The translations under genes and the position numbers were made by a program. This document shows positions 8,156 through 32,506 of a stretch of 64,000 bases of DNA, piece after piece. How positions within the stretch are numbered: the stretch's first letter is position 1; each line of letters opens with the position of its first letter. The notes beneath the pieces were generated by a model, which searched no databases, had not been told where the DNA came from, and worked only from the letters and a program-made list of their open reading frames with translations. Origin of the DNA: Winogradskyella pelagia (GTDB taxonomy: Bacteria > Bacteroidota > Bacteroidia > Flavobacteriales > Flavobacteriaceae); the NCBI RefSeq assembly GCF_017581965.1, contig NZ_JAGEVF010000001.1:186001-250000 (forward strand), written 5' to 3'.

Positions 8156-8225
8156 CACTTGCCCCTAATTTCATAGTGACTTTTTAATTTAATTGTACAT
8201 TAGAGCCTTAAATCAATAGTAAAAA

Positions 8226-9353: not shown

Positions 9354-9384
9354 GTTAACCGAGAAAATTAAATCGCTGCTTTTG

Positions 9385-9786
9385 ATGTTTCTTGAAAAAG
9401 AACAAATATTTTCTAAGATCCATCTCTTAATATCGGTTGTAATTGTTGCACCTGCAGCAATTATCTACGGGTTTTCTCCAGACTTGTTTTTAGATTTACA
9501 AATTAACACAATCGATGAGATTAATATATTAAAGGCCATAACAGGTCTATACTTGGCATTTTCCTCAATTTGGTTATTGGCACTCTTTAAGAACTCATTA
9601 ATTCAAGTAGCTCAATCTTCTAATATGGTTTTTATGTTGGGTCTAGGCCTTGGTAGAGTGTTAAGTTTTATTCTCGACGGCGTACCCTCTTATGCACTAA
9701 TATATGGTGCAATAGGCGAATTGCTGTTAGGGTTTTACGGCATTTGGCTGTTGTTTTCGTACAACACCAAAAAACCGATACCTTAA
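9385..9786 (+). CDS. Small integral membrane protein, DUF4345-like
   Basis: A 133-aa protein with four predicted transmembrane segments (about residues 10-30, 45-65, 75-95 and 100-125). The order of helices and the GLYLAFSSIWLL and LGLGRVLSFILDG stretches resemble the DUF4345 family. Function is unknown. ATG at 9385 is preferred over the in-frame TTG just before it. It lies 31 nt after the preceding lipoprotein gene and could be cotranscribed with it. Confidence 0.65.
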   Translation: MFLEKEQIFSKIHLLISVVIVAPAAIIYGFSPDLFLDLQINTIDEINILKAITGLYLAFSSIWLLALFKNSLIQVAQSSNMVFMLGLGLGRVLSFILDGVPSYALIYGAIGELLLGFYGIWLLFSYNTKKPIP

Positions 9787-9817
9787 AAATGAGTAGATTT
9801 GCATCAAAAACAGGTAC

Positions 9818-12012: not shown

Positions 12013-12405
12013 TTATGATTTTTTTCGCTTTCCTAAAAGATTTGGGTCCTCAATAGGATTGTCTCCTCCCTTCAGTGAGCGCTCTATTTTATCAATATAA
12101 TCTAGGGAGTCATCAATAAAAAATTCGAGATTAGGCATTCGTCTGAGCTGGTGTCTAGTACGCTGAGCTAACTCGTGTCTAATTAATGGTTTATTGGATT
12201 TAATACCTTTTAGCAGTGCTTCCGCTTCTTTATTTGGAAAAATACTGAGGTAAACTTTTGCTATAGACAAGTCTGCCGTAACGTTTACTTTAGTTACAGA
12301 AATAATAACCCCTTTAAGGCCTCCCTCCGAAGCAGCACGTTGCAGTACATCTACTAAATCTTCTTGAAGTAATCCCGCTATTTTCTTTTGTCTATTGCTT
12401 TCCAT
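12013..12405 (-). CDS. rbfA: Ribosome-binding factor A
   Basis: A 130-aa KH-like 30S maturation factor that binds near the 16S rRNA 5' helix; the order NRQKKIAGLLQEDL, then VTADLSIAKVYLSIFP and RTRHQLRRMPNLEFFIDDSLDYIDKI is diagnostic. The start is set at ATG 12405. An in-frame ATG at 12423 would add MVYFCP, but those codons are the promoter box TATTTTTG itself. With only 4 nt between that box and the ATG, the mRNA is probably leaderless. It heads a likely two-gene unit with the FtsX-like permease gene. Confidence 0.95.
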   Translation of the reverse strand: MESNRQKKIAGLLQEDLVDVLQRAASEGGLKGVIISVTKVNVTADLSIAKVYLSIFPNKEAEALLKGIKSNKPLIRHELAQRTRHQLRRMPNLEFFIDDSLDYIDKIERSLKGGDNPIEDPNLLGKRKKS

Positions 12406-12409
12406 AGGG

Positions 12410-12417
12410 CAAAAATA
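12410..12417 (-). promoter_or_regulatory. -7 box TATTTTTG placed 4 nt before the rbfA ATG
   Basis: The minus strand reads TATTTTTG-CCCT-ATG. The box matches TANNTTTG exactly, and its spacing puts the expected transcription start at or within a base or two of the ATG, implying a leaderless message. The same box and spacing occur before the ABC ATPase gene at 33420. Confidence 0.6.
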
Positions 12418-12510
12418 TACCATATTTAATGATAAGTGCTGTTAATAGAACAAAAATCATATTCTGCATTTTTAATAATTGCGATATTTGGTGACTAAAA
12501 TCGATATAAC

Positions 12511-12915
12511 ATGAAAAAAATAGAACATATAGGTATTGCGGTTAAAGATATTGAGGTATCTAATGCATTATTTAAATTGCTTTTTGGAAAAGAGCATTAT
12601 AAAATTGAAGACGTAGAAAGCGAAGGTGTTAAAACATCGTTTTTTAAATGCGGGCCAAATAAAATAGAATTATTACAGGCCACAAAAGACGACAGTCCAA
12701 TAGCAAAGTTTATAGAAAAAAAAGGAGAGGGCATTCATCATATTGCTTTTGCCGTTGACGATATTGAAAGCGAAATAGAGCGCTTAAAAGCTGAAGGTTT
12801 TCAAATGATTAATAATATTCCTAAAAAAGGCGCAGACAATAAGATTATTGCATTTTTACACCCTAAGGCAACTAATGGAGTTTTGGTAGAGCTATGCCAA
12901 GATATTAGAGATTAA
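12511..12915 (+). CDS. mce: Methylmalonyl-CoA epimerase
   Basis: A 134-aa protein of the vicinal oxygen chelate (glyoxalase) superfamily, the normal epimerase length. It interconverts (R)- and (S)-methylmalonyl-CoA in propionate and branched-chain catabolism. Conserved features are the N-terminal KIEHIGIAVKD with the first metal His, IELLQ, GEGIHHIAFAVDDI with the second His, and a C-terminal VLVELCQ with the metal Glu. No mutase gene is nearby. A near-consensus -7 box (GATATTTG at 12483-12490) precedes it. Confidence 0.92.
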   Translation: MKKIEHIGIAVKDIEVSNALFKLLFGKEHYKIEDVESEGVKTSFFKCGPNKIELLQATKDDSPIAKFIEKKGEGIHHIAFAVDDIESEIERLKAEGFQMINNIPKKGADNKIIAFLHPKATNGVLVELCQDIRD

Positions 12916-12919
12916 TTTC

Positions 12920-12950
12920 TTGTAGAGTATTAAAATATATAGTAATATTG
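12920..12950 (+). promoter_or_regulatory. Promoter for the CAT-anticodon tRNA gene
   Basis: TTG at 12920-12922, a 20-nt spacer, and TAATATTG at 12943-12950 (one mismatch to TANNTTTG), followed by CACACTC. The tRNA begins 41 nt downstream of the box. Confidence 0.5.
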
Positions 12951-12991
12951 CACACTCTTTTAAAATAAAGAGAGCTTACAACATTCAAATT

Positions 12992-13065
12992 GGTCCTATA
13001 ACTCAGTTGGTTAGAGTATCTGACTCATAATCAGAAAGTCCCTGGTTCGAGCCCAGGTGGGACCA
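12992..13065 (+). tRNA. tRNA with CAT anticodon (elongator Met, or Ile2)
   Basis: A 74-nt cloverleaf. The acceptor stem GGTCCTA/TGGGACC is fully paired with one G-T wobble, the D stem is ACTC/GAGT, the anticodon stem TCTGA/TCAGA encloses CTCATAA, and the T arm is CCTGG-TTCGAGC-CCAGG, with discriminator A. CCA is not encoded. The anticodon CAT fits elongator Met or, if C34 is lysidinylated, Ile(AUA); primary sequence alone does not decide, though Met is preferred. A strong hairpin terminator follows at once. Confidence 0.93.
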
Positions 13066-13069
13066 CGAA

Positions 13070-13097
13070 AAAACCTTAGTGTAGCTAAGGTTTTTTT
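13070..13097 (+). terminator. Intrinsic terminator of the CAT-anticodon tRNA
   Basis: A 10-bp stem AAAACCTTAG / CTAAGGTTTT with loop TGTAG and a following T-run, 5 nt after the tRNA. Confidence 0.9.
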
Positions 13098-13182
13098 ATT
13101 TAAAAAAGGCAAGGGTCACTAAATAAAAAATAAATATTGCACGCTTCCTATTTAGAACTAAACAGTAATTATAAATTAATAT

Positions 13183-13190
13183 TATATTTG
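13183..13190 (+). promoter_or_regulatory. -7 box TATATTTG upstream of the PID-CTERM gene
   Basis: An exact TANNTTTG match followed directly by the 10-nt palindrome TCGTATACGA (13191-13200). It implies a leader of about 150 nt before ATG 13346. A second, weaker box (TAAATATTG at 13131-13139, followed by CACGC) lies about 50 nt further upstream. Confidence 0.5.
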
Positions 13191-13345
13191 TCGTATACGA
13201 TAAAAGAGCTGTGTGCACTACTTCCCTAACACGAGCACATTTTAACGTTTTGTCGATAATATTTACCGTTCAAAGACGTTTTTTAATAGAATTGATTTTG
13301 TTGGCTAGGATTTTTTTTTACTTTTACCACACCTTAATTAATATA

Positions 13346-13546
13346 ATGCCTAATAAAAATATGTTTGCCTCAATCTTATTTTTTTGCCTAGGCCTTGTTT
13401 CTTTGGCTCAGGGAGGCACACCTCCGCCGCCTACACCACCACCACCTCCTGGTTTACCTATTGATAATGGCGTTACTGCTGTGTTTGTTCTAGCATTATT
13501 ATATGGAGGCTATAAGGCGTATCAACGAACAAGACAGAAGGCCTAA
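13346..13546 (+). CDS. PID-CTERM sorting-signal mini-protein
   Basis: A 66-aa protein made almost only of a signal peptide (residues 1-22, ending LAQG), a poly-Pro linker (25-35), the tripeptide Pro-Ile-Asp at 38-40, a hydrophobic helix (43-57) and a basic tail RTRQKA. This matches the PID-CTERM protein-sorting domain described by annotators for Flavobacteriia, in which a C-terminal PxGLPID-helix-basic tail is presumed to be recognised by a membrane sorting enzyme. Almost no mature domain remains, so its function is unknown. Longer in-frame starts reach back to 13211 but read through untypical sequence. The stop overlaps the ribE stop by CTAA. Confidence 0.7.
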   Translation: MPNKNMFASILFFCLGLVSLAQGGTPPPPTPPPPPGLPIDNGVTAVFVLALLYGGYKAYQRTRQKA

Positions 13547-14133
13547 AGCCTTAACTCGTTCAAGCGCTTCACGTATTTACCAATAACATCAAATTCTAAA
13601 TTAACGGAATCTCCTACGGATAAATTTTTAAATGTAGTATGGTTGTAGGTATAAGGGATAATTGCAACCGAAAATTCATGTAACTTAGAATTTACAACCG
13701 TTAAACTTACACCATTAACAGTAATTGACCCCTTCTCAATAGTGACGTTGTTCAAAGCGGCATCATAGCTAAAACTAAAAATCCAGCTACCATCTTTTTC
13801 GTCAACAGCAGTACATATAGCAGTTTGGTCAATATGACCCTGAACAATATGGCCGTCTAATCGGTCCCCTAGTTTCATGGCACGTTCAATATTGATTTTG
13901 TCACCAATATTTAAGAATCCCAGATTGGTTTTTTCTAAAGTTTCCGCAATGGCAGTTACAGTATAAAATTCATCCTTAATATCCACTACAGTCAGACAGA
14001 CACCGTTATGAGCAACGCTCTGGTCTATTTTTAACTCGTCTGTGATAACAGTCTTTACAGTTATATCAAGATTACTTCCTGATTTATTCAAACTTTCAAC
14101 AGTACCTATTTCTTCAATAATGCCAGTAAACAT
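13543..14133 (-). CDS. ribE: Riboflavin synthase, alpha subunit
   Basis: A 196-aa enzyme that dismutates two 6,7-dimethyl-8-ribityllumazine molecules into riboflavin and a pyrimidinedione. It shows the duplicated lumazine-binding barrel: repeat one starts MFTGIIEEIGTV with NGVCLTVVD, and repeat two has GHIVQGHIDQTA and NGVSLTVVN. It stands alone, away from other rib genes, and no FMN riboswitch is visible in the short leader. A TANNTTTG box lies about 33 nt before the ATG. Confidence 0.96.
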   Translation of the reverse strand: MFTGIIEEIGTVESLNKSGSNLDITVKTVITDELKIDQSVAHNGVCLTVVDIKDEFYTVTAIAETLEKTNLGFLNIGDKINIERAMKLGDRLDGHIVQGHIDQTAICTAVDEKDGSWIFSFSYDAALNNVTIEKGSITVNGVSLTVVNSKLHEFSVAIIPYTYNHTTFKNLSVGDSVNLEFDVIGKYVKRLNELRL

Positions 14134-16281: not shown

Positions 16282-17277
16282 ATGAGTAACATCAAAGCGG
16301 CCATTACAGCTGTAGGAGGCTACGTTCCAGACTATATTCTTACCAATCAAATTCTGGAAAAAATGGTAGACACTAACGACGAGTGGATTACTACCAGAAC
16401 TGGGATAAAAGAGAGACGCATTTTAAAAGAAGAAGGTAAAGGGTCGTCTTTTCTTGCTATTAAAGCTGCAGAGCAACTGATTAAAAAGTCGAACTTAGAT
16501 CCAAAGGAAATAGATTTGGTCATTGTAGCTACCGCTACTCCAGATATGAAGGCAGCTTCGACAGCAGCATACACAGCCACACAAATAGGTGCAGTAAACG
16601 CTTTTTCATTTGATTTGGAAGCGGCGTGCTCCAGTTTTTTGTTTGGTATGTCTACTGCGGCAGCATACATCGAATCTGGACGTTATAAAAAAATTCTTCT
16701 CATAGGAGCGGATAAGAATTCCTCATTCATTGATTATAAAGATAGAGCGACCTGCATCATTTTTGGAGATGGAGCGGGAGCTGTTCTATTTGAACCAAAC
16801 GATGAAGGTTTTGGGCTTCAAGATGAATATCTTAGAAGCAATGGAGAAGGAAGAGAATTTTTGCAAGCTACATTTGGAGGGTCCTCTTATCCCATAACTG
16901 CAGATACATTCCATGAAGGAAAGCACTATGTATTTCAAGATGGGAAGACCGTTTTTAAAAATGCCGTATTTAATATGGCTGATGTTGCCGAAAAGATTTT
17001 GGAGCGTAATCAATTAAGCCAGGAAGATATATCGTGGTTGGTTGCCCACCAAGCCAATAAAAGAATAATAGATGCAACCGCAAGTAGAATTAAACTAGAT
17101 GATTCAAAAGTAATGATGAACATCCAGAAGTATGGAAATACGACTTCTGCGACACTTCCTTTGCTTTTGCATGATTATGAATCGCAACTCAAAAAGGGGG
17201 ACAACTTAATTTTTGCTGCTTTTGGAGGTGGATTTACTTGGGGCTCTATTTATTTAAAATGGGCCTATAACTCATAA
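16282..17277 (+). CDS. fabH: Beta-ketoacyl-ACP synthase III
   Basis: A 331-aa condensing enzyme that starts fatty acid synthesis by joining an acyl-CoA (acetyl or branched) to malonyl-ACP. The catalytic triad is evident: Cys116 in EAACSSFLFGM, the His of WLVAHQANKRI and the Asn of YGNTTSAT. The N-terminal DEWITTRTGIKERR is characteristic. It lies 28 nt before accB and forms a classic fabH-accB-accC set. An AT-rich promoter-like region with TAATTTG (16254-16260) precedes it. Confidence 0.97.
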   Translation: MSNIKAAITAVGGYVPDYILTNQILEKMVDTNDEWITTRTGIKERRILKEEGKGSSFLAIKAAEQLIKKSNLDPKEIDLVIVATATPDMKAASTAAYTATQIGAVNAFSFDLEAACSSFLFGMSTAAAYIESGRYKKILLIGADKNSSFIDYKDRATCIIFGDGAGAVLFEPNDEGFGLQDEYLRSNGEGREFLQATFGGSSYPITADTFHEGKHYVFQDGKTVFKNAVFNMADVAEKILERNQLSQEDISWLVAHQANKRIIDATASRIKLDDSKVMMNIQKYGNTTSATLPLLLHDYESQLKKGDNLIFAAFGGGFTWGSIYLKWAYNS

Positions 17278-17305
17278 CACAACACTAACTAACAAATAAT
17301 ACATT

Positions 17306-17794
17306 ATGGATTTAAAGGAAATTCAGAATTTAATAAAGTTTGTTGCTAAGTCAGGAGCAAGCGAAGTTAAATTAGAAATGGATGATGTTAAAATTACGAT
17401 TAAAACAGGTTCAGATTCTGAAACTACAATCGTACAACAACTACCCGTTCAGGCAGCAGCACCTGTTGTGCAGCAACAAGCTCCTCCAGTCGCGGCACCA
17501 GCACCAGCTGCACCAGAAGCTTCTGCGCCGGCCGCCGCAAGTGATGATGCTAAATATATTACCATTAAATCTCCTATTATTGGAACATTTTACCGTAAAC
17601 CTTCTCCCGATAAACCTGTATTTGTGGAAGTCGGTTCTAGTATAAAAGAGGGTGATGTACTTTGTGTTATAGAGGCTATGAAATTATTCAACGAAATAGA
17701 GTCTGAAGTTACCGGTAAAATTGTTAAAGTGCTGGTAGATGATTCTTCTCCAGTAGAATTTGACCAACCACTGTTTTTGGTTGACCCATCATAA
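17306..17794 (+). CDS. accB: Biotin carboxyl carrier protein of acetyl-CoA carboxylase
   Basis: A 162-aa BCCP. The N-terminal assembly helix (MDLKEIQNLIKFVAKSGASE) is followed by an Ala/Pro/Gln-rich flexible linker at about 45-80 and a biotinyl domain whose EAMKL motif presents the biotinylated Lys126. It carries the carboxyl group from AccC to the carboxyltransferase. It is followed after 83 nt by accC; that gap holds a repeat-like palindromic sequence. Confidence 0.97.
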   Translation: MDLKEIQNLIKFVAKSGASEVKLEMDDVKITIKTGSDSETTIVQQLPVQAAAPVVQQQAPPVAAPAPAAPEASAPAAASDDAKYITIKSPIIGTFYRKPSPDKPVFVEVGSSIKEGDVLCVIEAMKLFNEIESEVTGKIVKVLVDDSSPVEFDQPLFLVDPS

Positions 17795-17858
17795 CAATTG
17801 AAAATTCCAATCTACAAATCCCAAAACCCAATTGTTGGAATTTGGTGCTTGGAAATTG
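17795..17858. repeat. Palindromic ATTCCAA-type intergenic repeat between accB and accC
   Basis: The 83-nt gap contains AAATTCCAA in its left part and TTGGAATTT plus TTGGAAATTG in its right part. The outer CAATT and AATTG arms also complement each other, so the segment can fold into an imperfect hairpin. The sequence is neither coding-like nor a T-tailed terminator. It resembles short dispersed intergenic repeats of Flavobacteriaceae; the family assignment is an inference. Confidence 0.4.
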
Positions 17859-17877
17859 AATTTTTAAATTAAAAGTT

Positions 17878-19230
17878 ATGTTCAAAAAAATATTGATAGC
17901 CAATAGAGGTGAAATAGCACTGCGTGTTATTAGAACCTGCAAAGAAATGGGAGTTAAAACAGTAGCAGTATATTCAACCGCTGATGCTGATAGCCTTCAC
18001 GTAAAATTTGCTGACGAGGCCGTCTGTATTGGCCCACCGTCTAGTAGTGAGTCTTATTTAAAAATATCTAATATTATTGCTGCGGCAGAGATAACCAATG
18101 CCGATGCAATACATCCAGGCTATGGATTTCTGTCCGAAAACGCCAAGTTTTCTAAAATATGCGAAGAGCACGGAATTAAGTTTATCGGTGCCTCAGAAGA
18201 AATGATATCCAAAATGGGTGACAAAGCAACCGCTAAGGCTACCATGAAAGCAGCAGGTGTGCCTTGTGTACCAGGAAGTGATGGTATCATAGAAGATTTT
18301 AAAGCTTGCGAAAAGATTGCTAAGGACATAGGTTACCCTGTAATGCTTAAAGCTACCGCAGGTGGTGGTGGTAAAGGGATGAGAGCTGTGTGGAAATCCG
18401 AAGACTTAAAGGCAGCTTGGGACTCTGCAAGACAAGAATCTAAGGCGGCTTTCGGAAATGACGGTATGTACATGGAGAAACTAATTGAAGAACCAAGACA
18501 TATTGAAATTCAAGTTGTAGGCGATTCTCGCGGAAAAGCTTGCCATTTGTCCGAAAGAGATTGCTCAATACAAAGGCGTCATCAAAAATTAACAGAAGAG
18601 GTGCCATCTCCATTTATGACTGATAAGTTAAGGGATAAAATGGGTAAGGCTGCGGTTAAAGCGGCGGAATACATAAAATACGAAGGAGCCGGGACGGTGG
18701 AGTTTCTTGTTGATAAACATCGAAATTTCTATTTTATGGAGATGAATACCAGAATACAAGTGGAGCATCCCATTACCGAACAAGTTATAGATTTTGACTT
18801 GATTAGAGAGCAAATTCTTGTTGCTGCAGGAGTGCCAATATCAGGAAAAAATTATACGCCTAATCTACATTCTATAGAATGTAGAATCAATGCAGAAGAC
18901 CCTTATAATGATTTTAGACCTTCACCTGGTAAAATAACAACTTTACATGCGCCAGGAGGTCATGGCGTGAGATTAGATACTCATGTTTATGCTGGTTATA
19001 GTATACCACCCAATTATGACTCCATGATTGCCAAGTTGATAACCACAGCTCAAACTAGGGAAGAAGCGATTAATAAAATGAAGCGCGCACTAGATGAGTT
19101 CGTAATTGAAGGTATTAAAACTACTATACCATTCCATCGACAACTGATGGAACATCCAGATTATTTGGCCGGTAACTATACCACCAAGTTTATGGAGGAT
19201 TTCGAAATTAAGAAAGAAGAGGACGAATAA
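17878..19230 (+). CDS. accC: Acetyl-CoA carboxylase, biotin carboxylase subunit
   Basis: A 450-aa ATP-grasp enzyme that carboxylates the biotin of AccB. The N-terminus [20 protein letters not shown], the glycine-rich ATP loop GGGGKGMR and the catalytic region [15 protein letters not shown] are all intact, and the length is standard. It is followed by a strong terminator. Together with fabH and accB it supplies malonyl-CoA, which would also serve as extender for the polyketide-type cluster at 23-32 kb. Confidence 0.98.
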
Positions 19231-23197: not shown

Positions 23198-23716
23198 ATG
23201 ATAAAAACCTTTATTACATTTTTGGCTTTTTTTTACCTGACATGTGTATGTGGCCAAGATAAGTCTAGTGTCGAATTTATCATTAAAAATGTGGGAATCA
23301 ATGTTGATGGGCATTTTAATAATTTTCAAATTAAGGCTGCTTTCAATTCTTCAAACACACTTACTTCAGTTAATGGCGAAATTGACGTGGCATCCCTAGA
23401 AACAGGTATTGAAAGTAGGGACGAGCATTTGCTTAAAGAGGATTATTTTAATTCTGAAGATTATCCAAAAATTAGTTTAAGAAGTTATAAAATCACCAAG
23501 AATTCCATCACAGATTATACGGTAAGGGCCAAGTTATCTATAAAAAAGACAACTAAGGAAATCACTATTCCTATAAGTGTTGAAACTTTAAACAAACAGT
23601 GGAAACTCCAATCGAATTTTGAAATTAACAGAAAGGACTTCGACGTAGGAGGAGGAAGTTTTGTTTTAGGCAAAACGGTTAAAGTCAAGGTTCTTCATTA
23701 TCAGCCCATCGAATGA
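23198..23716 (+). CDS. YceI family periplasmic lipid-binding-like protein
   Basis: A 172-aa protein with a signal peptide (1-19, ending VCGQ) followed by the YceI lipocalin-like domain: VEFIIKNVGINVDGHF, the EIDVASLETGIESRDEHL block, and KKTTKEITIPI. Members of this family bind polyisoprenoid or quinone-like lipids in an elongated barrel. Its stop overlaps the ATG of the flavoprotein gene by 4 nt, so it belongs to the biosynthetic operon, where it may shuttle the lipid product across the periplasm (inference). Confidence 0.88.
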   Translation: MIKTFITFLAFFYLTCVCGQDKSSVEFIIKNVGINVDGHFNNFQIKAAFNSSNTLTSVNGEIDVASLETGIESRDEHLLKEDYFNSEDYPKISLRSYKITKNSITDYTVRAKLSIKKTTKEITIPISVETLNKQWKLQSNFEINRKDFDVGGGSFVLGKTVKVKVLHYQPIE

Positions 23717-24858
23717 AAAAAATAGAATTTGATGTTGTGGTTGTTGGTGGTGGACTAGCTGGGTTGTGCAGTGCCATTCATTTAGCAAAGTCAAAATTCA
23801 AGGTGTTGCTTTTAGAAAAAAACACCTATCCAAAGCACAAGGTGTGTGGTGAATATATATCAAATGAGGTATTGCCATATGTGAAATGGTTGGGGTTTGA
23901 TCCCTTTTCTTTTAGTGCTAAACGCATTAGTAACTTTGAATTAACAACCCATAATAACAAACATATTTCGGCACGATTACCGTTAGGAGGTTTCGGAATG
24001 AGCCGCTTTGAAATGGATTATCAACTTGCTCAAATAGCTTTGGATAATAATGTGACGTTTATTCACACCTCAGTAATTGACATCAAATTTGAGGAAGCAT
24101 CAGACGAATTTAAAACAACAACTAAATCAGGAGATAATTACAGATCAAAAATCGTTATAGGAGCATATGGGAAGCGCTCTAATTTAGACGTAACTTTAAA
24201 ACGTAAATTCATTAAAAACCGCGCACCGTACCTTGGTGTTAAGGCACATGTTTCGGGTAATTTTCCTGAGGATAAGGTAGCACTTCATAATTTTAAAGGC
24301 GGTTATTGTGGAGTGTCTAAGGTAGAAAACGATTATATTAACCTGTGCTATATCACAAATTTTAAATCATTTAAAAAGTTTAAGGACATAAAGTCATTTC
24401 AAGAACAAGTGCTCTTTAAAAATAAAGCGCTTAGAAGTATATTTACTGAAAGCATAATGGAATTTACAAAGCCATTAACTATCAGTCAGATTTCTTTTGA
24501 TACCAAAACTCCTGTTGAAAATCATATTTTAATGTGCGGCGATACCGCAGGAATGATCCATCCCTTGTGCGGAAATGGTATGGGAATGGCAATAAGAAGT
24601 GCTCAATTAGCATCAGATTTGATTATTGAGTATCTTCAAGAAAAAATTGAAACTCGAGAGAAACTAGAGAAATTATATATCAAGTCTTGGAAGAAGAGCT
24701 TTAGTTGGCGCCTAAGAGCAGGTCACACTATAGCATATTTATTTCGTCAAGATTGGTTGGCACCGAAACTTTTGATTCTACTGAGGTGGTTTCCTTTTTT
24801 GGTTCCAAATATTATAAAAATGACACATGGCAAACCCATGATAGTACCTTTTAAATGA
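23713..24858 (+). CDS. FAD-dependent monooxygenase / geranylgeranyl-reductase-like oxidoreductase
   Basis: A 381-aa class A flavoprotein: GGGLAG at 12-17, the RFEMDYQLA region near 98-106 and the GD motif MCGDTAGMIHPLCGNG at 274-289. This layout is shared by p-hydroxybenzoate-hydroxylase-like enzymes and geranylgeranyl reductases. The sequence CGEYIS (45-50) after the FAD motif is typical of the reductase-like subgroup. Placed directly before a methyltransferase and a type III PKS, it is the counterpart of SrsC, which hydroxylates alkylresorcinols. Reaction and substrate are inferred. It overlaps both neighbours by 4 nt. Confidence 0.85.
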   Translation: MKKIEFDVVVVGGGLAGLCSAIHLAKSKFKVLLLEKNTYPKHKVCGEYISNEVLPYVKWLGFDPFSFSAKRISNFELTTHNNKHISARLPLGGFGMSRFEMDYQLAQIALDNNVTFIHTSVIDIKFEEASDEFKTTTKSGDNYRSKIVIGAYGKRSNLDVTLKRKFIKNRAPYLGVKAHVSGNFPEDKVALHNFKGGYCGVSKVENDYINLCYITNFKSFKKFKDIKSFQEQVLFKNKALRSIFTESIMEFTKPLTISQISFDTKTPVENHILMCGDTAGMIHPLCGNGMGMAIRSAQLASDLIIEYLQEKIETREKLEKLYIKSWKKSFSWRLRAGHTIAYLFRQDWLAPKLLILLRWFPFLVPNIIKMTHGKPMIVPFK

Positions 24859-25565
24859 GCTTATTCATAGATACAACATATCGCAGCAAGGAGTCAGAGC
24901 TCATGGATGATTTTTCTATGGAAGGTGAGTTGTTACGCGATACTCTAGATAAATTGGGCACTATAAATAAGTGGCTTGGAGGTAATAGGGTAACCCTTAA
25001 CGGCATTAAACAATTACTAAAAGAGCAACCTAAGGACAGAACATATACCATCATAGATCTGGGCTGTGGTCATGGAGATATATTAAGACTAGTAGCTGAT
25101 TTTGGAAAAAACAACAATTATTCATTTCAATTGATAGGAATAGATGCCAATGAAGATGCAATTTCTTATGCAAGACTGCTGTCGCGAGATTATAACGAAC
25201 TATCTTTTATGGGTTTGGATATTTTTTCAGAAGAGTTCAAAAATTTAAAGTTTGATATAGCGTTATCCACTTTATTTTTACATCACTTTAATGAAGGGGA
25301 GATTAGTATATTACTTCAGGGATTGTCTAAAACCGCTAAGTTAGGTGTTGTTGTAAATGATTTACAACGAAGTGAGATAGCCTATGGATTATTTAAATCT
25401 CTGGGATTGTTCATATCTAATCATATGATTGTTCAAGATGGATTAACCTCAATTTTAAGAGCGTTTAAAAGAAATGAATTAGAAGAAATGTCCAATCAAT
25501 TAAACCTTAAATCCAAGATTCGCTGGAAATGGGCTTTTCGTTATCAGTGGCTTATTTTTAGATAA
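24855..25565 (+). CDS. SAM-dependent methyltransferase in the type III PKS cluster
   Basis: A 236-aa class I methyltransferase with motif I DLGCGHGD at 68-75, the acidic loop GIDANEDAI near 95-103, and a post-I region ALSTLFLHHF. This resembles UbiE-like and small-molecule O- or C-methyltransferases. It overlaps the flavoprotein gene by ATGA and precedes the type III PKS, as SrsB accompanies SrsA in Streptomyces. The acceptor is presumably the phenolic polyketide. A 140-nt gap separates it from the PKS gene. Confidence 0.85.
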   Translation: MSLFIDTTYRSKESELMDDFSMEGELLRDTLDKLGTINKWLGGNRVTLNGIKQLLKEQPKDRTYTIIDLGCGHGDILRLVADFGKNNNYSFQLIGIDANEDAISYARLLSRDYNELSFMGLDIFSEEFKNLKFDIALSTLFLHHFNEGEISILLQGLSKTAKLGVVVNDLQRSEIAYGLFKSLGLFISNHMIVQDGLTSILRAFKRNELEEMSNQLNLKSKIRWKWAFRYQWLIFR

Positions 25566-25705
25566 GAGTTTTTTTAGTTGATTTGACCATAAAAACAAAT
25601 TGTACTCAGATGACATGCTGACATCATCAAGGTGTTTGTTATCATGAGAAATGAAAAATTCAATATAAATAATTAAGAAGCGTCCTGTCTTCACAGGAAA
25701 TAAAT
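25566..25705 (+). other. Noncoding gap within the type III PKS cluster
   Basis: 140 nt with no credible reading frame. It holds a small hairpin CCTGT-CTTC-ACAGG ending about 10 nt before the PKS ATG, and an imperfect GATGA...TCATC dyad. No clear T-tailed terminator or TANNTTTG box was found. Confidence 0.4.
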
Positions 25706-26758
25706 ATGGCGGTAAGAATCACATCAGTTGCAAAACAACTACCAAAATACACTAGGGAAACCAAAGATATTCTTCCTTTTGTTGAGCTTTGGCTGCAAGG
25801 ACAGGAAGAACGCTTTAAGCGCAAAGTCTTAAAGATTTTTGAGAATGCAGCTGTAGACAGACGCTATGCGATTATGGATGCTGAGGAGGTTTTTAATAAC
25901 ACATCCTTTGAAGAAAAGAATAATACCTACAGCAGGGAATCTATTAAGTTGGCAGAAAAGAGTTTAATGAAAGCGTTGAATAAAGCCCAATTAAGCCCTA
26001 AGGACATCGATTATATCATTACAGTGAGCTGCACAGGTATCATGATACCGTCTTTAGACGCTTATCTCATTAATAGCCTAAAAATGAAACAAGACATTGT
26101 GAGATTACCAGTTACTGAAATGGGATGTGCGGCAGGTGTATCGGGCATCCTTTATGCTAAGAATTTTCTTAAGGCCAATCCAAATAAACGTGCAGCAGTG
26201 ATTGCTGTGGAGTCTCCAACTTCTACTTTTCAGCTAAATGACTATTCTATGGTTAACATTGTAAGTGCTGCGATTTTTGGTGACGGCTGCGCTAGTGTAA
26301 TTTTATCTTCCTATGAAGAAGAGAATGGCCCAGAAATAATAGATGAAGCAATGTATCATTTTTATAACGCCGAACATATGATGGGCTTTAATCTTAGAAA
26401 TACAGGCTTACAAATGGTTTTAGATCAATCTGTACCGCAGACTATTGCAGACCATTTTCCAAAAATCATCCATCCGTTTTTAGACAAGAACGGTTTAACG
26501 ATTGAAGACATAAATCATTTGGTATTTCATCCGGGTGGAAAAAAAATAGTTCAAACGGTAGAAGATTTATTCGGAGCCTTAGGAAAAAATATAGACGATA
26601 CTAAGGAAGTTTTGCGTTTATATGGTAATATGAGTAGCGCCACAGTTCTTTACGTTTTAGAACGTTTTATGGATAGAGATTTACCTAAAGGTGATAAAGG
26701 AATTATGTTGAGTTTCGGACCAGGATTTTCAGCACAACGTATTTTATTAGAGTGGTAA
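25706..26758 (+). CDS. Type III polyketide synthase (chalcone/stilbene synthase family)
   Basis: A 350-aa homodimeric-type condensing enzyme. The Cys-His-Asn triad is intact: Cys141 in TEMGCAAGVSG, His275 in LVFHPGGKK and Asn308 in LYGNMSSATV; the C-terminal GFGPG-like loop is FGPGFSAQ. It would extend an acyl starter with malonyl-CoA and cyclise to a resorcinol, pyrone or phloroglucinol. Because an acyl-ACP toolkit is encoded directly downstream, a long or modified acyl starter seems likely, giving an alkyl-phenol lipid (inference). The core of a 9-kb biosynthetic cluster. Confidence 0.93.
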   Translation: MAVRITSVAKQLPKYTRETKDILPFVELWLQGQEERFKRKVLKIFENAAVDRRYAIMDAEEVFNNTSFEEKNNTYSRESIKLAEKSLMKALNKAQLSPKDIDYIITVSCTGIMIPSLDAYLINSLKMKQDIVRLPVTEMGCAAGVSGILYAKNFLKANPNKRAAVIAVESPTSTFQLNDYSMVNIVSAAIFGDGCASVILSSYEEENGPEIIDEAMYHFYNAEHMMGFNLRNTGLQMVLDQSVPQTIADHFPKIIHPFLDKNGLTIEDINHLVFHPGGKKIVQTVEDLFGALGKNIDDTKEVLRLYGNMSSATVLYVLERFMDRDLPKGDKGIMLSFGPGFSAQRILLEW

Positions 26759-26770
26759 CAACAATTATTC

Positions 26771-26800
26771 TGTCATGCTGAATTTATTTCAGCATCTCAT
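26771..26800. repeat. REP-like hairpin between the PKS and reductase genes
   Basis: An 8-bp perfect stem ATGCTGAA / TTCAGCAT (loop TTTAT) inside a TGTCATGCTGAA...CAGCATCTCAT context. This motif resembles short dispersed palindromes common in flavobacterial intergenic DNA. It lacks a T-run directly after the stem, so it is a poor terminator but may stabilise or process the operon mRNA. Confidence 0.5.
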
Positions 26801-26812
26801 AAATAAAAAAAA

Positions 26813-27607
26813 ATGAAAGAATTTCAAGATAAAAATGAATGGGCTTTAATTCTTGGCGGTAGTTCTGGGTTGGGTTTAGCAACTGCCAAAAAACTTGCTA
26901 ATCATGGCATGAATATCTGTATTATCCATCGTAACTCAAAAATGCAGGAGCCGGACGTTAATGCTGAATTTGAAACCATAAAGAATAAGAATATTCAGTT
27001 TAAGTCATTTAATAGCGATGCCTTTAAGCCAGAAAAAAGGGATACTATTATAGAGGATTTAAAAGCTATTTTAGGTTTAAATCACAAGATTAAAGTATTA
27101 GTGCATAGTGTTGCGAAAGGAAATTTAAAACCTATGGTTTCTAATGAAAATCCAGTGCTCAAAAATGACGATTTTGCTCTAACTATCAATGCTATGGCCA
27201 TTAGTTTGTACGATTGGAGTAAGGCCTTATTTGAAGCGCAATTATTTGCAAAAGACACACGTATTGTAAGTTTTACGAGTGAAGGGAACACTAAGGCCTG
27301 GCAAAATTATGCAGCTGTTTCAGCAGCAAAAGTAGCTTTAGAAGCTATTACAAGAAATATAGCTTTAGAGTTCGCCCAGTTTGGAATAAAAGCCAATTGT
27401 ATTCAGGCAGGAGTAACAGATACCGCTTCTTTGCGAATGATACCAGGTAGCCATAAAATTATAGAACACAGCTTAAAAAGAAACCCAAATAAACGATTGA
27501 CATTGCCTGAAGATGTGGCTAATGCCGTTTATTTATTAAGTAGAGATGAAGCCTCTTGGATTACCGGAACAGTTATTCCCGTAGATGGCGGTGAGCATTT
27601 ATCGTAG
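26813..27607 (+). CDS. SDR oxidoreductase, FabL/FabI-like enoyl-ACP reductase
   Basis: A 264-aa short-chain dehydrogenase with cofactor loop GGSSGLG (15-21) and C-terminal GTVIPVDGG. The active-site spacing is Tyr166-x6-Lys173 (YAAVSAAK), the spacing of enoyl-ACP reductases FabI and FabL, not the Y-x3-K of ketoreductases. The following KANCIQAGVTDT also resembles FabL. It is therefore predicted to reduce enoyl-ACP intermediates in the acyl-chain branch of this cluster. No separate ketoreductase gene is seen nearby. Confidence 0.8.
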   Translation: MKEFQDKNEWALILGGSSGLGLATAKKLANHGMNICIIHRNSKMQEPDVNAEFETIKNKNIQFKSFNSDAFKPEKRDTIIEDLKAILGLNHKIKVLVHSVAKGNLKPMVSNENPVLKNDDFALTINAMAISLYDWSKALFEAQLFAKDTRIVSFTSEGNTKAWQNYAAVSAAKVALEAITRNIALEFAQFGIKANCIQAGVTDTASLRMIPGSHKIIEHSLKRNPNKRLTLPEDVANAVYLLSRDEASWITGTVIPVDGGEHLS

Positions 27608-27709
27608 CGAAAAAAACGGTAACTCCTCTGTGATTCTTGAGTAATAAAATTGTATAGAGAAGTGTTTCATCACATTAATAAGATTACTACTTCAGCAGTT
27701 ATTAAAAAA

Positions 27710-28147
27710 ATGAATAAAGAAGATATTATATCGCTTTTGCCCTATCAAGAACCATTTTTATTTGTAGATGGTATAGATACCATTTCAGAATCTGGTATTA
27801 CGGGATATTATAACTTCAAAAAAGACGAATTATTCTATAGAGGGCACTTTAAAAACAATCCTGTAACACCCGGTGTTATTCTTACCGAATGCATGGCACA
27901 AATAGGGTTGGTTTGTTTGGGGATTTACCTTTTGAAAGACGAAATTAGAGAGAGTCAAAATCCACAAATAGCCCTAACCTCTCATCAGATGGATTTTTAT
28001 TTACCAGTCTTACCTAATGAAAAGGTTACGATTGTTTCAAAAAAGGAAGTCTTTAGGTTTAACAAATTACGTTGTCACGTAAAAATGTTCAACAACAAGA
28101 ACGAACTTGTATGCAAAGGTGTAATTTCAGGAATGTTTAAAGCATGA
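27710..28147 (+). CDS. FabZ-like 3-hydroxyacyl-ACP dehydratase
   Basis: A 145-aa single hotdog domain. The signature GHFKNNPVTPGVILTE places catalytic His46 and Glu60 as in FabZ/FabA. It would dehydrate 3-hydroxyacyl-ACP to enoyl-ACP for the FabL-like enzyme encoded before it. ATG 27710 is preferred; a TTG at 27650 would add 20 residues unlike the family. Its stop overlaps the ketosynthase ATG by 4 nt. Confidence 0.85.
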   Translation: MNKEDIISLLPYQEPFLFVDGIDTISESGITGYYNFKKDELFYRGHFKNNPVTPGVILTECMAQIGLVCLGIYLLKDEIRESQNPQIALTSHQMDFYLPVLPNEKVTIVSKKEVFRFNKLRCHVKMFNNKNELVCKGVISGMFKA

Positions 28148-29418
28148 AAAAAAGAGTCGTCATAACAGGCTTAGGTGTGGTCGCACCAAACGGAGTTGGC
28201 TTATCTGCCTTTACCAAAGCGTTAAAGGAAGGGACTTCAGGAATTACCTTTCATAAAGCGTTAAAGGACCTTAATTTTTCTTGTCAGATAGGAGGAGTTC
28301 CAAAGATTTCAGAAGTGTTAAAAGCGCAGTATTTTACAGAGTTACAACTTAGGGGATTTAATAGTTCGGGTATTTTATACGGCTGTATTGCGGGAATTGA
28401 TGCTTGGGAAGATGCAGGATTTCAAACCGACTCGGACAGCCCATTAGATTATGATACGGGCTTAATTTTTGGTACAGGCACCTCAGGCGTAGAGAAATTT
28501 AGGGAAGCTATTTACAAACTCGACGACGGTCAAGTACGAAGACTAGGAAGTACCGTTGTACTACAAACAATGGCCAGTGGTGTTAGTGCTTATTTGAGCG
28601 GTATGTTGGGCATAGGCAATCAAGTGACTACAAATTCCTCAGCATGTACTACGGGAACCGAAGCGCTTATTATGGGATTTGACCGTATCCAAAACGGCAA
28701 ATCAAAACGTATGCTCGTTGGTAGTTGTAGTGATCATGGCCCATACCTTTGGGGAGGTTTCGATGCTATGCGAGTTATGACCTATAAGCACAATGATAGT
28801 CCAGAAGCAGGGTCAAGACCAATGAGTGCAACAGCATCTGGTTTTGTGCCAGGAAGTGGCGCCGGAGCATTGGTCTTAGAATCGTTAGAAAGTGCTTTAG
28901 AGCGAGGAGCAAAAATCTATGCGGAGGTCTTAGGTGGCGAAATTAACTCTGGCGGACAGCGACATGGTGGGACACTAACAGCTCCAAATGCAGAAGCTGT
29001 TCAAAGGTGTATTAAAAAAGCAATTGATAACTCAGGGATTGAGCCAAAAGAAATTGATGTTATTAATGGACACCTAACCGCGACATCAAAAGACGTTTTA
29101 GAAATAGAGAATTGGACTAAAGCCTTAGATAGAAAAGGCGAAGCGTTCCCTTATATTAATTCTACCAAATCCTTAATTGGGCATTGCCTAGCCGCCGCAG
29201 GCGCAATAGAATGTGTGGCTAGCATCATTCAGTTAAAAAGTCAATTTTTAGCTCCAAATATAAATTGCGAGGACCTTCATCCTGAGATTATAAATTTAAT
29301 TCATGCAGAATGTATACCAACAAGGTCACAAGAAATAAACATTGACATAGTTGCTAAAGCCAGTTTTGGATTTGGAGATGTAAATGCCTGTGTTTTATTT
29401 AAACGTTTTAAAGCGTAA
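28144..29418 (+). CDS. Beta-ketoacyl-ACP synthase (KAS I/II type)
   Basis: A 424-aa condensing enzyme with N-terminal KKRVVITGLGVVAPNG and a full Cys-His-His triad: Cys168 (NSSACTTGTEA), His310 (INGHLTATSKD, where housekeeping FabF has NAHGTST) and His347 (KSLIGHCLAAAG). The changed surroundings of His310 mark it as a specialised secondary-metabolism ketosynthase rather than the housekeeping FabF. No paired chain-length factor is present. It is predicted to elongate the acyl chain on the cluster's own ACP. Confidence 0.9.
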   Translation: MKKRVVITGLGVVAPNGVGLSAFTKALKEGTSGITFHKALKDLNFSCQIGGVPKISEVLKAQYFTELQLRGFNSSGILYGCIAGIDAWEDAGFQTDSDSPLDYDTGLIFGTGTSGVEKFREAIYKLDDGQVRRLGSTVVLQTMASGVSAYLSGMLGIGNQVTTNSSACTTGTEALIMGFDRIQNGKSKRMLVGSCSDHGPYLWGGFDAMRVMTYKHNDSPEAGSRPMSATASGFVPGSGAGALVLESLESALERGAKIYAEVLGGEINSGGQRHGGTLTAPNAEAVQRCIKKAIDNSGIEPKEIDVINGHLTATSKDVLEIENWTKALDRKGEAFPYINSTKSLIGHCLAAAGAIECVASIIQLKSQFLAPNINCEDLHPEIINLIHAECIPTRSQEINIDIVAKASFGFGDVNACVLFKRFKA

Positions 29419-29440
29419 CTTTGGTTTATAAAATGATGCT

Positions 29441-29692
29441 ATGACTAAAGACGATTTAATTTCTAGATTAAAGACGATTGTTGCTCCATATGTTCAAGAT
29501 GAAGAAGCTTTTAAATCACTAACAGAAGACACTGATTTTGTCAAGGATTTGAAGATTAACTCTGCTAATTTGGTAGATATCATACTGGATATTGAAGATG
29601 AATTTGATATCAGACTGGAGAATGAAGATATGGAACAAATGCTCGATGTAAAATCTGCAATGACCATTGTTACCGCCAAATTAAAAGAGTAA
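29441..29692 (+). CDS. Acyl carrier protein of the PKS/FAS-like cluster
   Basis: An 83-aa acidic four-helix ACP. The phosphopantetheine site is DLKINSANLVD with Ser41, where the canonical DSL reads NSA, so it differs clearly from housekeeping AcpP. The remaining LDIEDEFDIRLENEDME and LDVKSAMTIV helices are standard. Its stop overlaps the ATG of the phosphopantetheinyl transferase gene by 1 nt (TAATG), suggesting the transferase is dedicated to it. Confidence 0.9.
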   Translation: MTKDDLISRLKTIVAPYVQDEEAFKSLTEDTDFVKDLKINSANLVDIILDIEDEFDIRLENEDMEQMLDVKSAMTIVTAKLKE

Positions 29693-30255
29693 TGGTTGGC
29701 AATGATATTATTGATATTGCTGAGGCCAAAATCTCATCTAATTATAAACGACCGCGCTTTTTAGAGACACTATTTTCTCTGAAAGAACAACAACATATTT
29801 ATAACTCTAACAATCCGTTTCAAACGGTTTGGCGCTTGTGGAGTATGAAAGAGGCGGCTTACAAACTATACACCCAAGGTTCTCCAAGTCGATTTTATAA
29901 TCCAAAAAAATTTGAATGTTTCATCGAAGCTACTTTTGGAATTGTGAAATTTCGAAATTTTAAGTGTTATGTAGCCACAGAAATCACGTTGGATTATATT
30001 ATATCTGAAGCCAGGTTAAAACCATTGACATTAAATTCTGAAGTGGTGAAGTTTAATTCTAAACATCTTCAAAATCAAAGTGAGTTCTTAAAAAGTAAAC
30101 TTATTAGATCAATTTCAAAAAAGTTTCATATTCCTGAAAGTGAATTAGCTTTTAAAAAGAACAATTACGGTATTCCAACTGTAGAATTCAATGAAATAAA
30201 AAAACATATTAGCTTGACGCATCACGGCAATTTTGGTGCTTTTGCAATTTCTTAG
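29692..30255 (+). CDS. 4'-phosphopantetheinyl transferase superfamily protein
   Basis: A 187-aa Sfp/AcpS superfamily member. The metal-binding GNDIID (3-8) and WSMKEAAYK (50-58, with Glu54) motifs are present, and a C-terminal LTHHGNFGAFA motif resembles the SxSH region. It would load phosphopantetheine from CoA onto Ser41 of the adjacent ACP. It is intermediate in size between AcpS and Sfp. It sits 1 nt before the exporter gene. Confidence 0.88.
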   Translation: MVGNDIIDIAEAKISSNYKRPRFLETLFSLKEQQHIYNSNNPFQTVWRLWSMKEAAYKLYTQGSPSRFYNPKKFECFIEATFGIVKFRNFKCYVATEITLDYIISEARLKPLTLNSEVVKFNSKHLQNQSEFLKSKLIRSISKKFHIPESELAFKKNNYGIPTVEFNEIKKHISLTHHGNFGAFAIS

Positions 30256-30256
30256 A

Positions 30257-32506
30257 ATGAAAAGGCTCAAAACTATCATAGCGATTATTATCAAATTCAG
30301 AATAGCCATTATTTTGGTTTTGGTACTTGCCATGGGTTTTTCTGGATATCAAACCCTTAATAAGTTAAGCGTAGATAATTCTCTGGGTATTTGGTTTTTA
30401 GAAGACGACCCTAGCTACAAAGCCTATATTGATTATCAAGAGCAATTTGGTTCTGATGAGATTTTTGTTGGGATGTTTCCTATTGAGAACGCTTTAGACG
30501 AAGAAAATATACTTCAGCTAGAAAAGTTGCACACCGCTTTAGATTCGCTTTGGTACGTTAAAACAACCTTTAGTTTAGCGACGGCCAAGTATCCTATTTA
30601 CGCTAATAACAAATTATACTTTGATGATTTGTATAATTCAAAACGAAGTGAAAAAGGATTAAAGAACTTATTTAAAAAACTACCCAACATTACGCAGCAA
30701 TTGGTCACTGATGATTACAGGAATCTATTCTTTTACATACAGCTCAACCCTACACCAACCATAGAAGAGAAACGCGATATTATTGCGGGAGAGATTAGGA
30801 CCGTCATTGAGAATTATTATATCGATTATTATTTAACAGGTGCACCAGTCCTCAATGAAGCGTATAGTAAAGGCATTTATAAAGAGAGTTTGGTATTTGG
30901 AATTTTAACCGTTCTAGTAATAACTATAATGCTTCTATTTCTATTACCAAGTAAACGATATTTAGTTGTCTCGTTGTTGTGTGTTGCACTACCAATTTCA
31001 GTATTATTTGGAATTATTACGTCTTTTGGTTTCGCACTGAACATGATTTCAATGTTAATACCGACTATACTCATGGTTTATTCTGTAAGTGATGCGGTAC
31101 ATATTATAAACATCTACCACAAAGAAGGTATTGACAACGAAAACCTTTCAAAATTAGATTTGATGACGCTAGCTGTTCGTAAAAGTATCACACCGTGTTT
31201 CTATACGACCTTAACCACTTTTGTCGGCTATTTTGCTTTGTATTTATCACCATTACCAGCATTTAAAAATATGGGTGTCTTTACCTGTATTGGTTTGGTT
31301 ATGGCTTTTATTTTAGTCTATGTAATTACAATTATAGGGTTCAGTTTTATGGATTTGAAATTTAAATCGGCTAAACCTATTCTAAGCTTAAAACGTTACA
31401 GTCAGACCAAGACCATTAATTGGTTAAACCAATTTAGCTCTCAATATAAGACTAGTATTATAGTAATATCAACAGTAATACTATTATTTGGGTTGTATTC
31501 TATTTTTAAGGTAAAAATAGACACCAATTCTTTAGACTTGTTAGCGGAAGGTAAAGCGAAGCAAGAGTTGCGTTATGTTGAAAGTAAGCTAAATAGCAGT
31601 TCGCGTTTACAACTTAATATCACCTCTAAAAACGGAACGATGTTAGACCGTGACGCTGTCTACCGTTTGGAAAAACTTCAAACCGAATTAGACGTAAATA
31701 GTTTACTCTCAGCACCAGTTTCTGTAGTAAACATTAAGCAGTTTTTAGAAAAACGCTCTCCAGTTTTATTTCAGTCTAATATTTCAAAAGCTACTATTGA
31801 TGCGACATTAACGGATATTGGAGATAATAGCAGTGAATTCTTCAAACTATATTCTAAAGACTATAAAACAGCAGGAATTACTCTTGGTGTTAAAGAGATA
31901 AAAACATCTGAATTAGAGCTTGTTTTAGCAGACATAAAAACAGCTTTTCAAAAGCATTTTGAACCTGATAAATACCAACTAAAGATTAACGGATTTTCAG
32001 TGGTGTTTTCTCAATTAAACAACTTTATTTTAGAAACACAATTCAAGTCCTTTTTTGCGGCATTTTTTGTTGCGTTTTTGTGCTTATGGTTTTTTATAAA
32101 GAGTATAAAAACAACACTCTTAGTTTTAATACCCAATATTTTACCATTAGCGATTCTGGCCATATTTATGAGTTTGTTAGATATCCCACTTGATGTTTCT
32201 ACAGCTATGATTACGCCAATAATGTTGGGAATTGCTATGGATGACACTATTCATTTGGTTCATAAATACCGAAAAAGCAAACATGTTCAAGGGTCGCCCG
32301 AAGCACGTATGGATAAAGCCATGCATTATACAGGGAGCGCTTTGTTTTCGACAACAATTGCTTTGGTCGGAGGGTTTTTAATTATAGCGTCAAGTGCCGT
32401 GCCGTCCGTTAGAGATTTTGGCTTATTGTGCGCAGTTACAGTTGCCATTGCTTTGATTACAGATGTTTTTTATTTACCGGCTTTGTTGAAGAAGTTTGAT
32501 AAGTAA
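30257..32506 (+). CDS. RND superfamily (MMPL-type) exporter
   Basis: A 749-aa inner membrane protein with two repeats, each of one helix, a periplasmic loop of 150-200 residues, and a five-helix bundle (clusters at about 215-360 and 590-745). The conserved Asp motifs appear as YSVSDAVHIINIYH and IAMDDTIHLVHKYR. Hydrophobe/lipid-exporting HpnN/MMPL proteins share this layout. As the last gene of the biosynthetic operon it probably exports the lipid product. ATG 30257 directly follows the PPTase stop; an earlier in-frame ATG at 30233 lies inside that gene. Confidence 0.85.
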   Translation: MKRLKTIIAIIIKFRIAIILVLVLAMGFSGYQTLNKLSVDNSLGIWFLEDDPSYKAYIDYQEQFGSDEIFVGMFPIENALDEENILQLEKLHTALDSLWYVKTTFSLATAKYPIYANNKLYFDDLYNSKRSEKGLKNLFKKLPNITQQLVTDDYRNLFFYIQLNPTPTIEEKRDIIAGEIRTVIENYYIDYYLTGAPVLNEAYSKGIYKESLVFGILTVLVITIMLLFLLPSKRYLVVSLLCVALPISVLFGIITSFGFALNMISMLIPTILMVYSVSDAVHIINIYHKEGIDNENLSKLDLMTLAVRKSITPCFYTTLTTFVGYFALYLSPLPAFKNMGVFTCIGLVMAFILVYVITIIGFSFMDLKFKSAKPILSLKRYSQTKTINWLNQFSSQYKTSIIVISTVILLFGLYSIFKVKIDTNSLDLLAEGKAKQELRYVESKLNSSSRLQLNITSKNGTMLDRDAVYRLEKLQTELDVNSLLSAPVSVVNIKQFLEKRSPVLFQSNISKATIDATLTDIGDNSSEFFKLYSKDYKTAGITLGVKEIKTSELELVLADIKTAFQKHFEPDKYQLKINGFSVVFSQLNNFILETQFKSFFAAFFVAFLCLWFFIKSIKTTLLVLIPNILPLAILAIFMSLLDIPLDVSTAMITPIMLGIAMDDTIHLVHKYRKSKHVQGSPEARMDKAMHYTGSALFSTTIALVGGFLIIASSAVPSVRDFGLLCAVTVAIALITDVFYLPALLKKFDK

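Follow-up and report, generated by a model that had tools for sequence, protein, structure and literature searches.

A conserved gene cluster of Flavobacteriaceae joins a type III polyketide synthase to a partial fatty-acid-like cassette and probably makes an alkyl aromatic lipid

Type III polyketide synthases (PKSs) were long thought to be limited to coenzyme A (CoA) substrates (PMC8086630; the papers cited here and below are used to the extent of their available text). ArsB and ArsC receive acyl chains from the acyl carrier protein (ACP) of ArsA (PMC6274091), CylI takes a chain made by a PKS, and HidC is putatively fed by acyl hand-over too (PMC8086630). Planctomycete PKSs from operons comprising a methyltransferase, an oxidoreductase and a type III PKS yield alkylresorcinols in a heterologous host (PMC10896814). 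Type III PKS clusters make up 10.74% of the biosynthetic gene clusters in a survey of Flavobacteriaceae and Weeksellaceae (PMC10734526) and 9% in a flavobacterial survey (PMC7440613); every Aquimarina genome of one study carries at least one, with products described as "likely novel" (PMC9323603), and Kordia antarctica carries one (PMC7477175). Here we analyze a ten-gene cluster built around a type III PKS in Winogradskyella pelagia, located at positions 23198-32506 of a 64,000-nucleotide (nt) window, i.e. the whole stretch of DNA under analysis (positions 186,001 to 250,000 of contig NZ_JAGEVF010000001.1, assembly GCF_017581965.1).

Open reading frame (ORF) calls together with Pfam and NCBIfam scans identified ten adjacent ORFs of the expected families, all on the + strand (Table 1), in the order YceI, flavin adenine dinucleotide (FAD) enzyme, methyltransferase (MT), type III PKS, enoyl reductase (ER), dehydratase (DH), ketosynthase (KS), ACP, phosphopantetheinyl transferase (PPT) and MMPL pump. 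Conservation was assessed in two sets of relatives that share organisms and whose counts are therefore not summed: a named set of the best 80 of 431 relatives, in which the nearest loci are mostly from Winogradskyella (PKS identity up to 92%), and a set of 60 one-per-genus loci. From Flavobacteriaceae, 60 of the 64 PKS places were taken as loci, with those of G000 (the genome of the window), G066, G072 and G150 left out (labels beginning with G and L are our own, for genomes and loci). Full flanks, i.e. more than 2.7 kb before and more than 7.5 kb after the PKS start, are present in 68 of the 80 named and 59 of the 60 one-per-genus loci. The numbers of these loci with each gene are (named; one-per-genus): FAD enzyme 68; 59, MT 67; 59, ER 54; 51, DH 68; 55, KS 67; 56, ACP 67; 56, PPT 67; 18, YceI (same-strand copies near the PKS) 42; 5, MMPL 25; 4. 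The core genes keep a single order throughout the 68 and 59 loci and none of them is antisense (YceI copies were left out of the antisense count). We conclude that the series FAD enzyme-MT-type III PKS-(ER)-DH-KS-ACP is a genuine conserved unit, beyond chance. The upstream flank contains DAO-like and GreA-like genes in one clade, and E1 dehydrogenase, lipocalin-like and OmpA-like genes in the other, where two envelope-type genes separate the E1 dehydrogenase, a conceivable source of starter units, from the operon; since the surroundings differ between the clades, the block is more than frozen synteny. The exporter and YceI were considered as core parts and rejected on the counts given above, and the PPT was undetected in 41 of the 59 one-per-genus loci; these three genes are lineage-specific and lie outside the core. 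An earlier note on this DNA had named the same ten same-strand genes and families and regarded them as one biosynthetic unit, which agrees with our gene calls and with the single core order; conservation of the whole set, which it proposed to look for in relatives, holds for the FAD enzyme, MT, PKS, DH, KS and ACP and fails for the exporter, YceI and PPT, with the ER being optional.

Among the variants of the operon, the cluster FAD enzyme, MT and KS genes of Lacinutrix neustonica (L076, ~8100-13950) are in several short pieces, which could be due to decay or to indel errors. A family of small ORFs (c31; 8 members in 7 loci, including L035, L039, L051, L060, L075 and L076) is inserted within the operon, and the copy in L035 looks GIY-YIG-like by eye.

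The PKS and the KS co-occur across genomes. A PKS match (E ≤ 1e-30) was found in 64 of 199 Flavobacteriaceae genomes, in 63 of them with at least 55% identity; in G150 the PKS is in two pieces (57% and 68% identity), and the PKS of G072 (32% identity) was excluded from the PKS clade, membership in this genome set being assigned by identity and not by a tree. A KS ortholog (E ≤ 1e-100) is present in 62 of the 199 genomes. The sole genome of the PKS clade without one (G138, L254) has a 77-residue dehydratase fragment near a contig end, ~9 kb from the reductase and after other genes. In two other genomes (G144 and G190; L252 and L253) the PKS and the KS are far apart, both are kept, and the DH, KS and ACP are still together. 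In a set of 394 Bacteroidota genomes, 33 contain the PKS clade (E ≤ 1e-80) and 38 contain the KS (E ≤ 1e-85), namely all of these 33 and five others. The earlier note had staked its proposal on the PKS and the genes resembling fatty acid synthase (FAS) being conserved together, and this expectation was borne out, with the PKS in 62/62 Flavobacteriaceae genomes that have the KS and the KS in 33/33 Bacteroidota genomes that have the PKS clade.

The window PKS exhibits the Cys-His-Asn triad and the chalcone/stilbene synthase domains, and C141, H275 and N308 are invariant in 137/137 aligned PKSs of the family (residue counts here and below include the window and refer to aligned rows whose length departs from the median by no more than 15%). 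Its score of 177.2 bits is below the curated NCBIfam cut-off of 425 for DpgA (3,5-dihydroxyphenylacetyl-CoA synthase). The AlphaFold model (predicted local distance difference test, pLDDT, 95.4) has as its closest solved structures PKS11 of Mycobacterium tuberculosis, which makes alkylpyrones, and CylI (resorcinol complex), and the sequence matches to structures are led by PKS11, RppA and CylI. A quick tree was built from 79 rows, comprising 27 PKSs linked to the cassette, 45 of 67 further PKSs from the phylum and 7 PDB segments. All 27 cassette-linked PKSs form one clade in it (Shimodaira-Hasegawa-like approximate likelihood ratio test 100, no bootstrap), placed on the RppA/PKS11/CylI side and away from the PKSs of the Bacteroidota triad clusters described below; the deeper joins are unsure because of long branches and partial PDB segments. 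Three further residues, P171, F228 and Q344, are fixed in 137/137 aligned cassette-linked PKSs. The corresponding residues are C, W and E in 45/45 other Bacteroidota type III PKSs compared, and in the seven PDB chains residue 344 is always E and residue 171 is C, S or T, with 228 being variable. Position 171 aligns with C205 of PKS18 (the C205F mutant structure is 1tee), a residue which we take to line the acyl tunnel. Another Bacteroidota family (L240, G310) was also seen to have a type III PKS, which is divergent (75 bits against the family model) and located near genes similar to KSs and to short-chain dehydrogenases/reductases (SDRs).

The tailoring pair has a distribution of its own. We defined as a triad any PKS flanked by an MT (>90 bits) and a FAD enzyme (>200 bits), and hand-picked 71 loci, about one per genus, from the listed part of 186 PKS matches in the phylum, with 10 more places added later; 24 triads were counted among the 67 loci from the phylum that do not belong to the cassette clade. 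Eight triad PKSs show only 24-29% identity to the window PKS, whereas the FAD enzymes are 37-46% identical to that of the window in 11 class-level triads and 26-32% in 7 more distant ones, which indicates that two lineages of PKS work with tailoring enzymes related to each other. The model of the FAD enzyme (pLDDT 92.5) is similar to flavin halogenases and to oxygenases acting on aromatics or squalene; its ten best matches include the Bmp2 brominase, squalene epoxidase and 3-hydroxybenzoate 6-hydroxylase. One could suspect a halogenase and hence a halogenated phenolic lipid, as the top sequence and fold matches include the flavin halogenases Bmp2, Mpy16 and PltA; however, the motif WxWxIP, characteristic of flavin-dependent halogenases, was found in 0/137 FAD enzymes, so that we favor a ring oxygenase and judge a halogenase very improbable. 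In three loci (L067, L070, L072) a second methyltransferase-like gene (Methyltransf_25, scanned in L067) was observed ahead of the PPT gene, ~3.9 kb past the PKS start, which suggests a doubly methylated product there.

The catalytic residues of the chain-building proteins are likewise invariant among the aligned members: Y166 and K173 of the reductase (116/116), H46 and E60 of the dehydratase (129/129), C168, H310 and H347 of the ketosynthase (131/131), and S41 of the ACP (106/106). The claim of intact active sites in the PKS, KS, DH and reductase is thereby upheld. The reductase exhibits the Y-x6-K site of FabL enoyl reductases, with a score below the curated NCBIfam cut-off for that family (Table 1). 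The genome of the window contains one other KS match (E ≤ 1e-5), 35% identical to the KS of the cluster, one other PPT match, and two other PP-binding matches besides the cluster ACP; thus, the cluster holds a set additional to the primary one.

Related cassettes were found in the five KS-bearing Bacteroidota genomes that lack the PKS clade. Two of them, from other families (G294, G573), contain ER-DH-KS-ACP-PPT in the same order, in divergent orientation, two genes away from DarB (634.8 and 614.7 bits, cut-off 550; G294 also has a DarH match). These dar-linked cassettes (L247, L248) show 42-45% (ER), 48-49% (DH), 51-52% (KS), 37-40% (ACP) and 21-23% (PPT) identity to the window. In the KS tree, for which a single, very long FabF branch serves as the root, the sequences linked to type III PKSs group together (support 97/97) and next with the dar-linked pair (93/95). 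DarB itself is present in 33/394 Bacteroidota genomes (E ≤ 1e-100; 29 above the cut-off), and a cassette KS of such strength adjoins it in just 2 of these 33, so the DarB-adjacent cassette is the exception and not the rule. No DarB match (E ≤ 1e-100) was found in the genome of the window, the cluster of which is not of the dar type. The other three genomes (L249, L250, L251) have DH-KS-ACP, with an ER in L250 only, and these sets belong to a different, unexplained lipid system; a GT2 glycosyltransferase gene is located near the sets in L249 and L250, L251 has a look-alike gene, and L249 also has a GNAT-like protein. We tentatively speculate, aware that the odds lean somewhat against this scenario as a whole, that ER-DH-KS-ACP-PPT could be a portable chain-building module joined to two unrelated ring-formers, DarB and the type III PKS, that the PKS clade so joined may now be obligately ACP-fed (with the changes Cys/Ser/Thr to Pro at 171 and Glu to Gln at 344 as its marks), and that the tailoring pair may have been taken from an older triad cluster of a different PKS lineage.

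Altogether, the single gene order, the co-occurrence of PKS and KS, the cassette on the DarB side, the similarity to PKS11 and CylI, and the precedents in the literature lead us to consider it rather probable that the cluster is responsible for an alkyl aromatic (phenolic) lipid with a chain built on the local ACP. The most likely product is a methylated, ring-oxidized alkyl aromatic lipid. In this pathway the local ACP, armed by the local PPT where present, would bear the growing chain, the local KS would extend it, a host FabG-type reductase would reduce it, and the local DH would remove water, with the local ER saturating the chain where present. The type III PKS would then be primed by the completed acyl-ACP or by a thioester formed from it, and would add about three malonyl units and close the ring. 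Decoration of the ring, by methylation on O or C and by hydroxylation/oxidation, would fall to the MT and the FAD oxygenase. Transport of the lipid to the envelope in Winogradskyella would probably be the task of the MMPL pump and YceI. The earlier note had named an alkylated aromatic lipid; a lipid-type aromatic stands as the best guess, and the acyl hand-over from the ACP, the number of extender units, the type of ring, the order of tailoring, the export and the chemistry of the product are what we infer.

Several observations weigh against this proposal. First, a separate ketoreductase (KR), a malonyl transferase and a starter ketosynthase (KAS III) were not recognized among the ten genes, unless the SDR is the KR; a complete private FAS or FAS II set is therefore rejected, and the private fatty-acid-like toolkit of the earlier note stands as a partial one, comprising the ER (sometimes absent), DH, KS and ACP. 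As they are unrecognized in the cluster, these three activities would have to be host functions for the proposed chain assembly to work. Second, the ER is absent from 14/68 named and 8/59 one-per-genus loci, and in the ten ER-less genomes searched a second ER elsewhere does not compensate for its loss, as they have no ortholog (E ≤ 1e-25); such lineages may have unsaturated chains or complete them with a different reductase. (A link between ER loss and the presence of DarB, looked at by eye, was confounded by one genus and dropped.) Third, three relatives hold the DH-KS-ACP set in the absence of the PKS clade and of an adjacent DarB. Fourth, a private FAS is not needed by a related tailoring pair, as cassette-type KS, DH and ACP genes were not seen near the PKS in any of the 24 triad clusters. 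Finally, use of acyl-CoA by the PKS is equally possible.

The optional ER, together with the fact that the closest structure, PKS11, makes alkylpyrones, would also be consistent with a pyrone or a polyene-type aromatic pigment instead of a saturated alkylresorcinol, with the ER-less versions yielding unsaturated chains. We consider such a product somewhat unlikely, as the ER is present in most loci (54/68 and 51/59) and an oxygenase-MT pair would suit a phenol better than a pyrone. The DH-KS-ACP sets related to that of the window and located near a GT2 glycosyltransferase in genomes without the PKS clade (L249, L250) fit another alternative, in which the PKS uses ordinary acyl-CoA or housekeeping acyl-ACP, while KS-DH-ER-ACP makes a second part of the lipid, e.g. 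an acyl group later joined to the ring. It has a parallel in flexirubin, where an aryl polyene with a proposed FAS-like origin is esterified to a separately made resorcinol (PMC3992019). However, the conserved unit as defined here includes no acyltransferase or ligase, so there is nothing obvious to join the two parts, and we regard this alternative as unlikely. These alternatives are not all mutually exclusive, either with each other or with a chain built on the local ACP and handed to the PKS.

Coordinates of the ten genes are listed in Table 1. The start of the DH gene is probably ATG 27710 rather than TTG 27650, and that of the exporter gene probably ATG 30257 rather than TTG 30233. With these starts, 4 of the 9 junctions overlap (by 4, 4, 4 and 1 nt) and the other five are gaps of 140, 54, 102, 22 and 1 nt, so that the description of many genes as overlapping by 1-4 nt was somewhat generous. 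The counts of promoter-like sites (47 vs 38.8 expected, standard deviation 5.7) and terminator-like sites (7 vs 5.5 expected) were uninformative. Elsewhere in the window, at 16282-19230, there is a FabH-like gene with genes that by eye resemble those for a biotin carboxyl carrier and a biotin carboxylase, a group that ends ~4 kb upstream of the cluster. ACP- and KS-like genes are also located past the window on the same contig (G000:C11:258751-260224).

Table 1. Genes of the Winogradskyella pelagia cluster, numbered from the first position of the window
Predicted product and status	Coordinates	Strand	Match
YceI-like secreted lipid-binding protein, optional neighbour	23198..23716	+	Pfam YceI 1.4e-27
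FAD-dependent oxygenase/reductase-fold tailoring enzyme, core	23713..24858	+	TIGR02032 112.6 bits, under cut-off 158.8
S-adenosylmethionine (SAM) methyltransferase, core	24855..25565	+	Methyltransf_31 1.1e-12; NF004851 136.9 bits, under cut-off 243
Type III polyketide synthase, core	25706..26758	+	Chal_sti_synt_C 2.7e-21
FabL-like SDR, probable enoyl reductase (Y-x6-K), optional	26813..27607	+	NF005975 150.8 bits, under cut-off 328
FabZ-like 3-hydroxyacyl dehydratase, core	27710..28147	+	Pfam FabA 2.2e-14
FabF-like ketosynthase, core	28144..29418	+	TIGR03150 280.6 bits, under cut-off 493.75
Dedicated acyl carrier protein, core	29441..29692	+	PP-binding 3.3e-05
Phosphopantetheinyl transferase, clade-specific	29692..30255	+	ACPS 2.3e-11
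RND/MMPL exporter (HAE3-like), lineage-specific	30257..32506	+	TIGR00921 1.9e-52, 178.3 bits, under cut-off 351.9

If our proposal is true, a PKS clade tied to its own ACP and KS would offer a natural example, open to testing, of an ACP-fed type III PKS, and the cassette would illustrate a chain-making module moving between unrelated ring-forming systems. The cluster could explain a part of the uncharacterized type III PKS clusters counted in Flavobacteriaceae and Weeksellaceae, and its product may be a widespread, unrecognized envelope lipid of marine flavobacteria. A literature search, thin on subscription journals and without preprints, returned no paper on this gene set or its product as judged by titles and the opening lines of abstracts, which is weak evidence of absence.

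As for the known systems, the hierridin hidABC and planctomycete operons contain the same trio of MT, oxidoreductase and type III PKS (PMC10896814, PMC8086630), and in the window cluster these three genes are adjacent, as in a hid-type operon; unlike the window cluster, the hid and planctomycete operons are not mentioned in the available text of these papers as having an ER-DH-KS-ACP set. The Bacteroidota triads have a PKS of another lineage than that of the window (the comparison covered these triads, with the HidC sequence itself outside it). In the cylindrocyclophane cluster, CylI is likewise a type III PKS that receives its chain from an ACP/PKS system (PMC8086630), but as far as the available text goes this chain is supplied by type I PKSs and a free-standing ACP and not by a mini-set of KS, DH and reductase. 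The Azotobacter ars system likewise couples a dedicated fatty acid synthase to type III PKSs (PMC6274091); its synthase is, however, a single protein, ArsA, with an ACP domain, and a FAD enzyme-MT pair is not mentioned in the available text. Finally, among the DarA/DarB dialkylresorcinol-flexirubin clusters, those in L247 and L248 hold the same-order ER-DH-KS-ACP-PPT cassette near darB, but the ring is made there by DarB and not by a type III PKS. As far as could be found, the window cluster represents an uncharacterized version of the aromatic-lipid clusters with a type III PKS, and its new element is the shared chain-building cassette.

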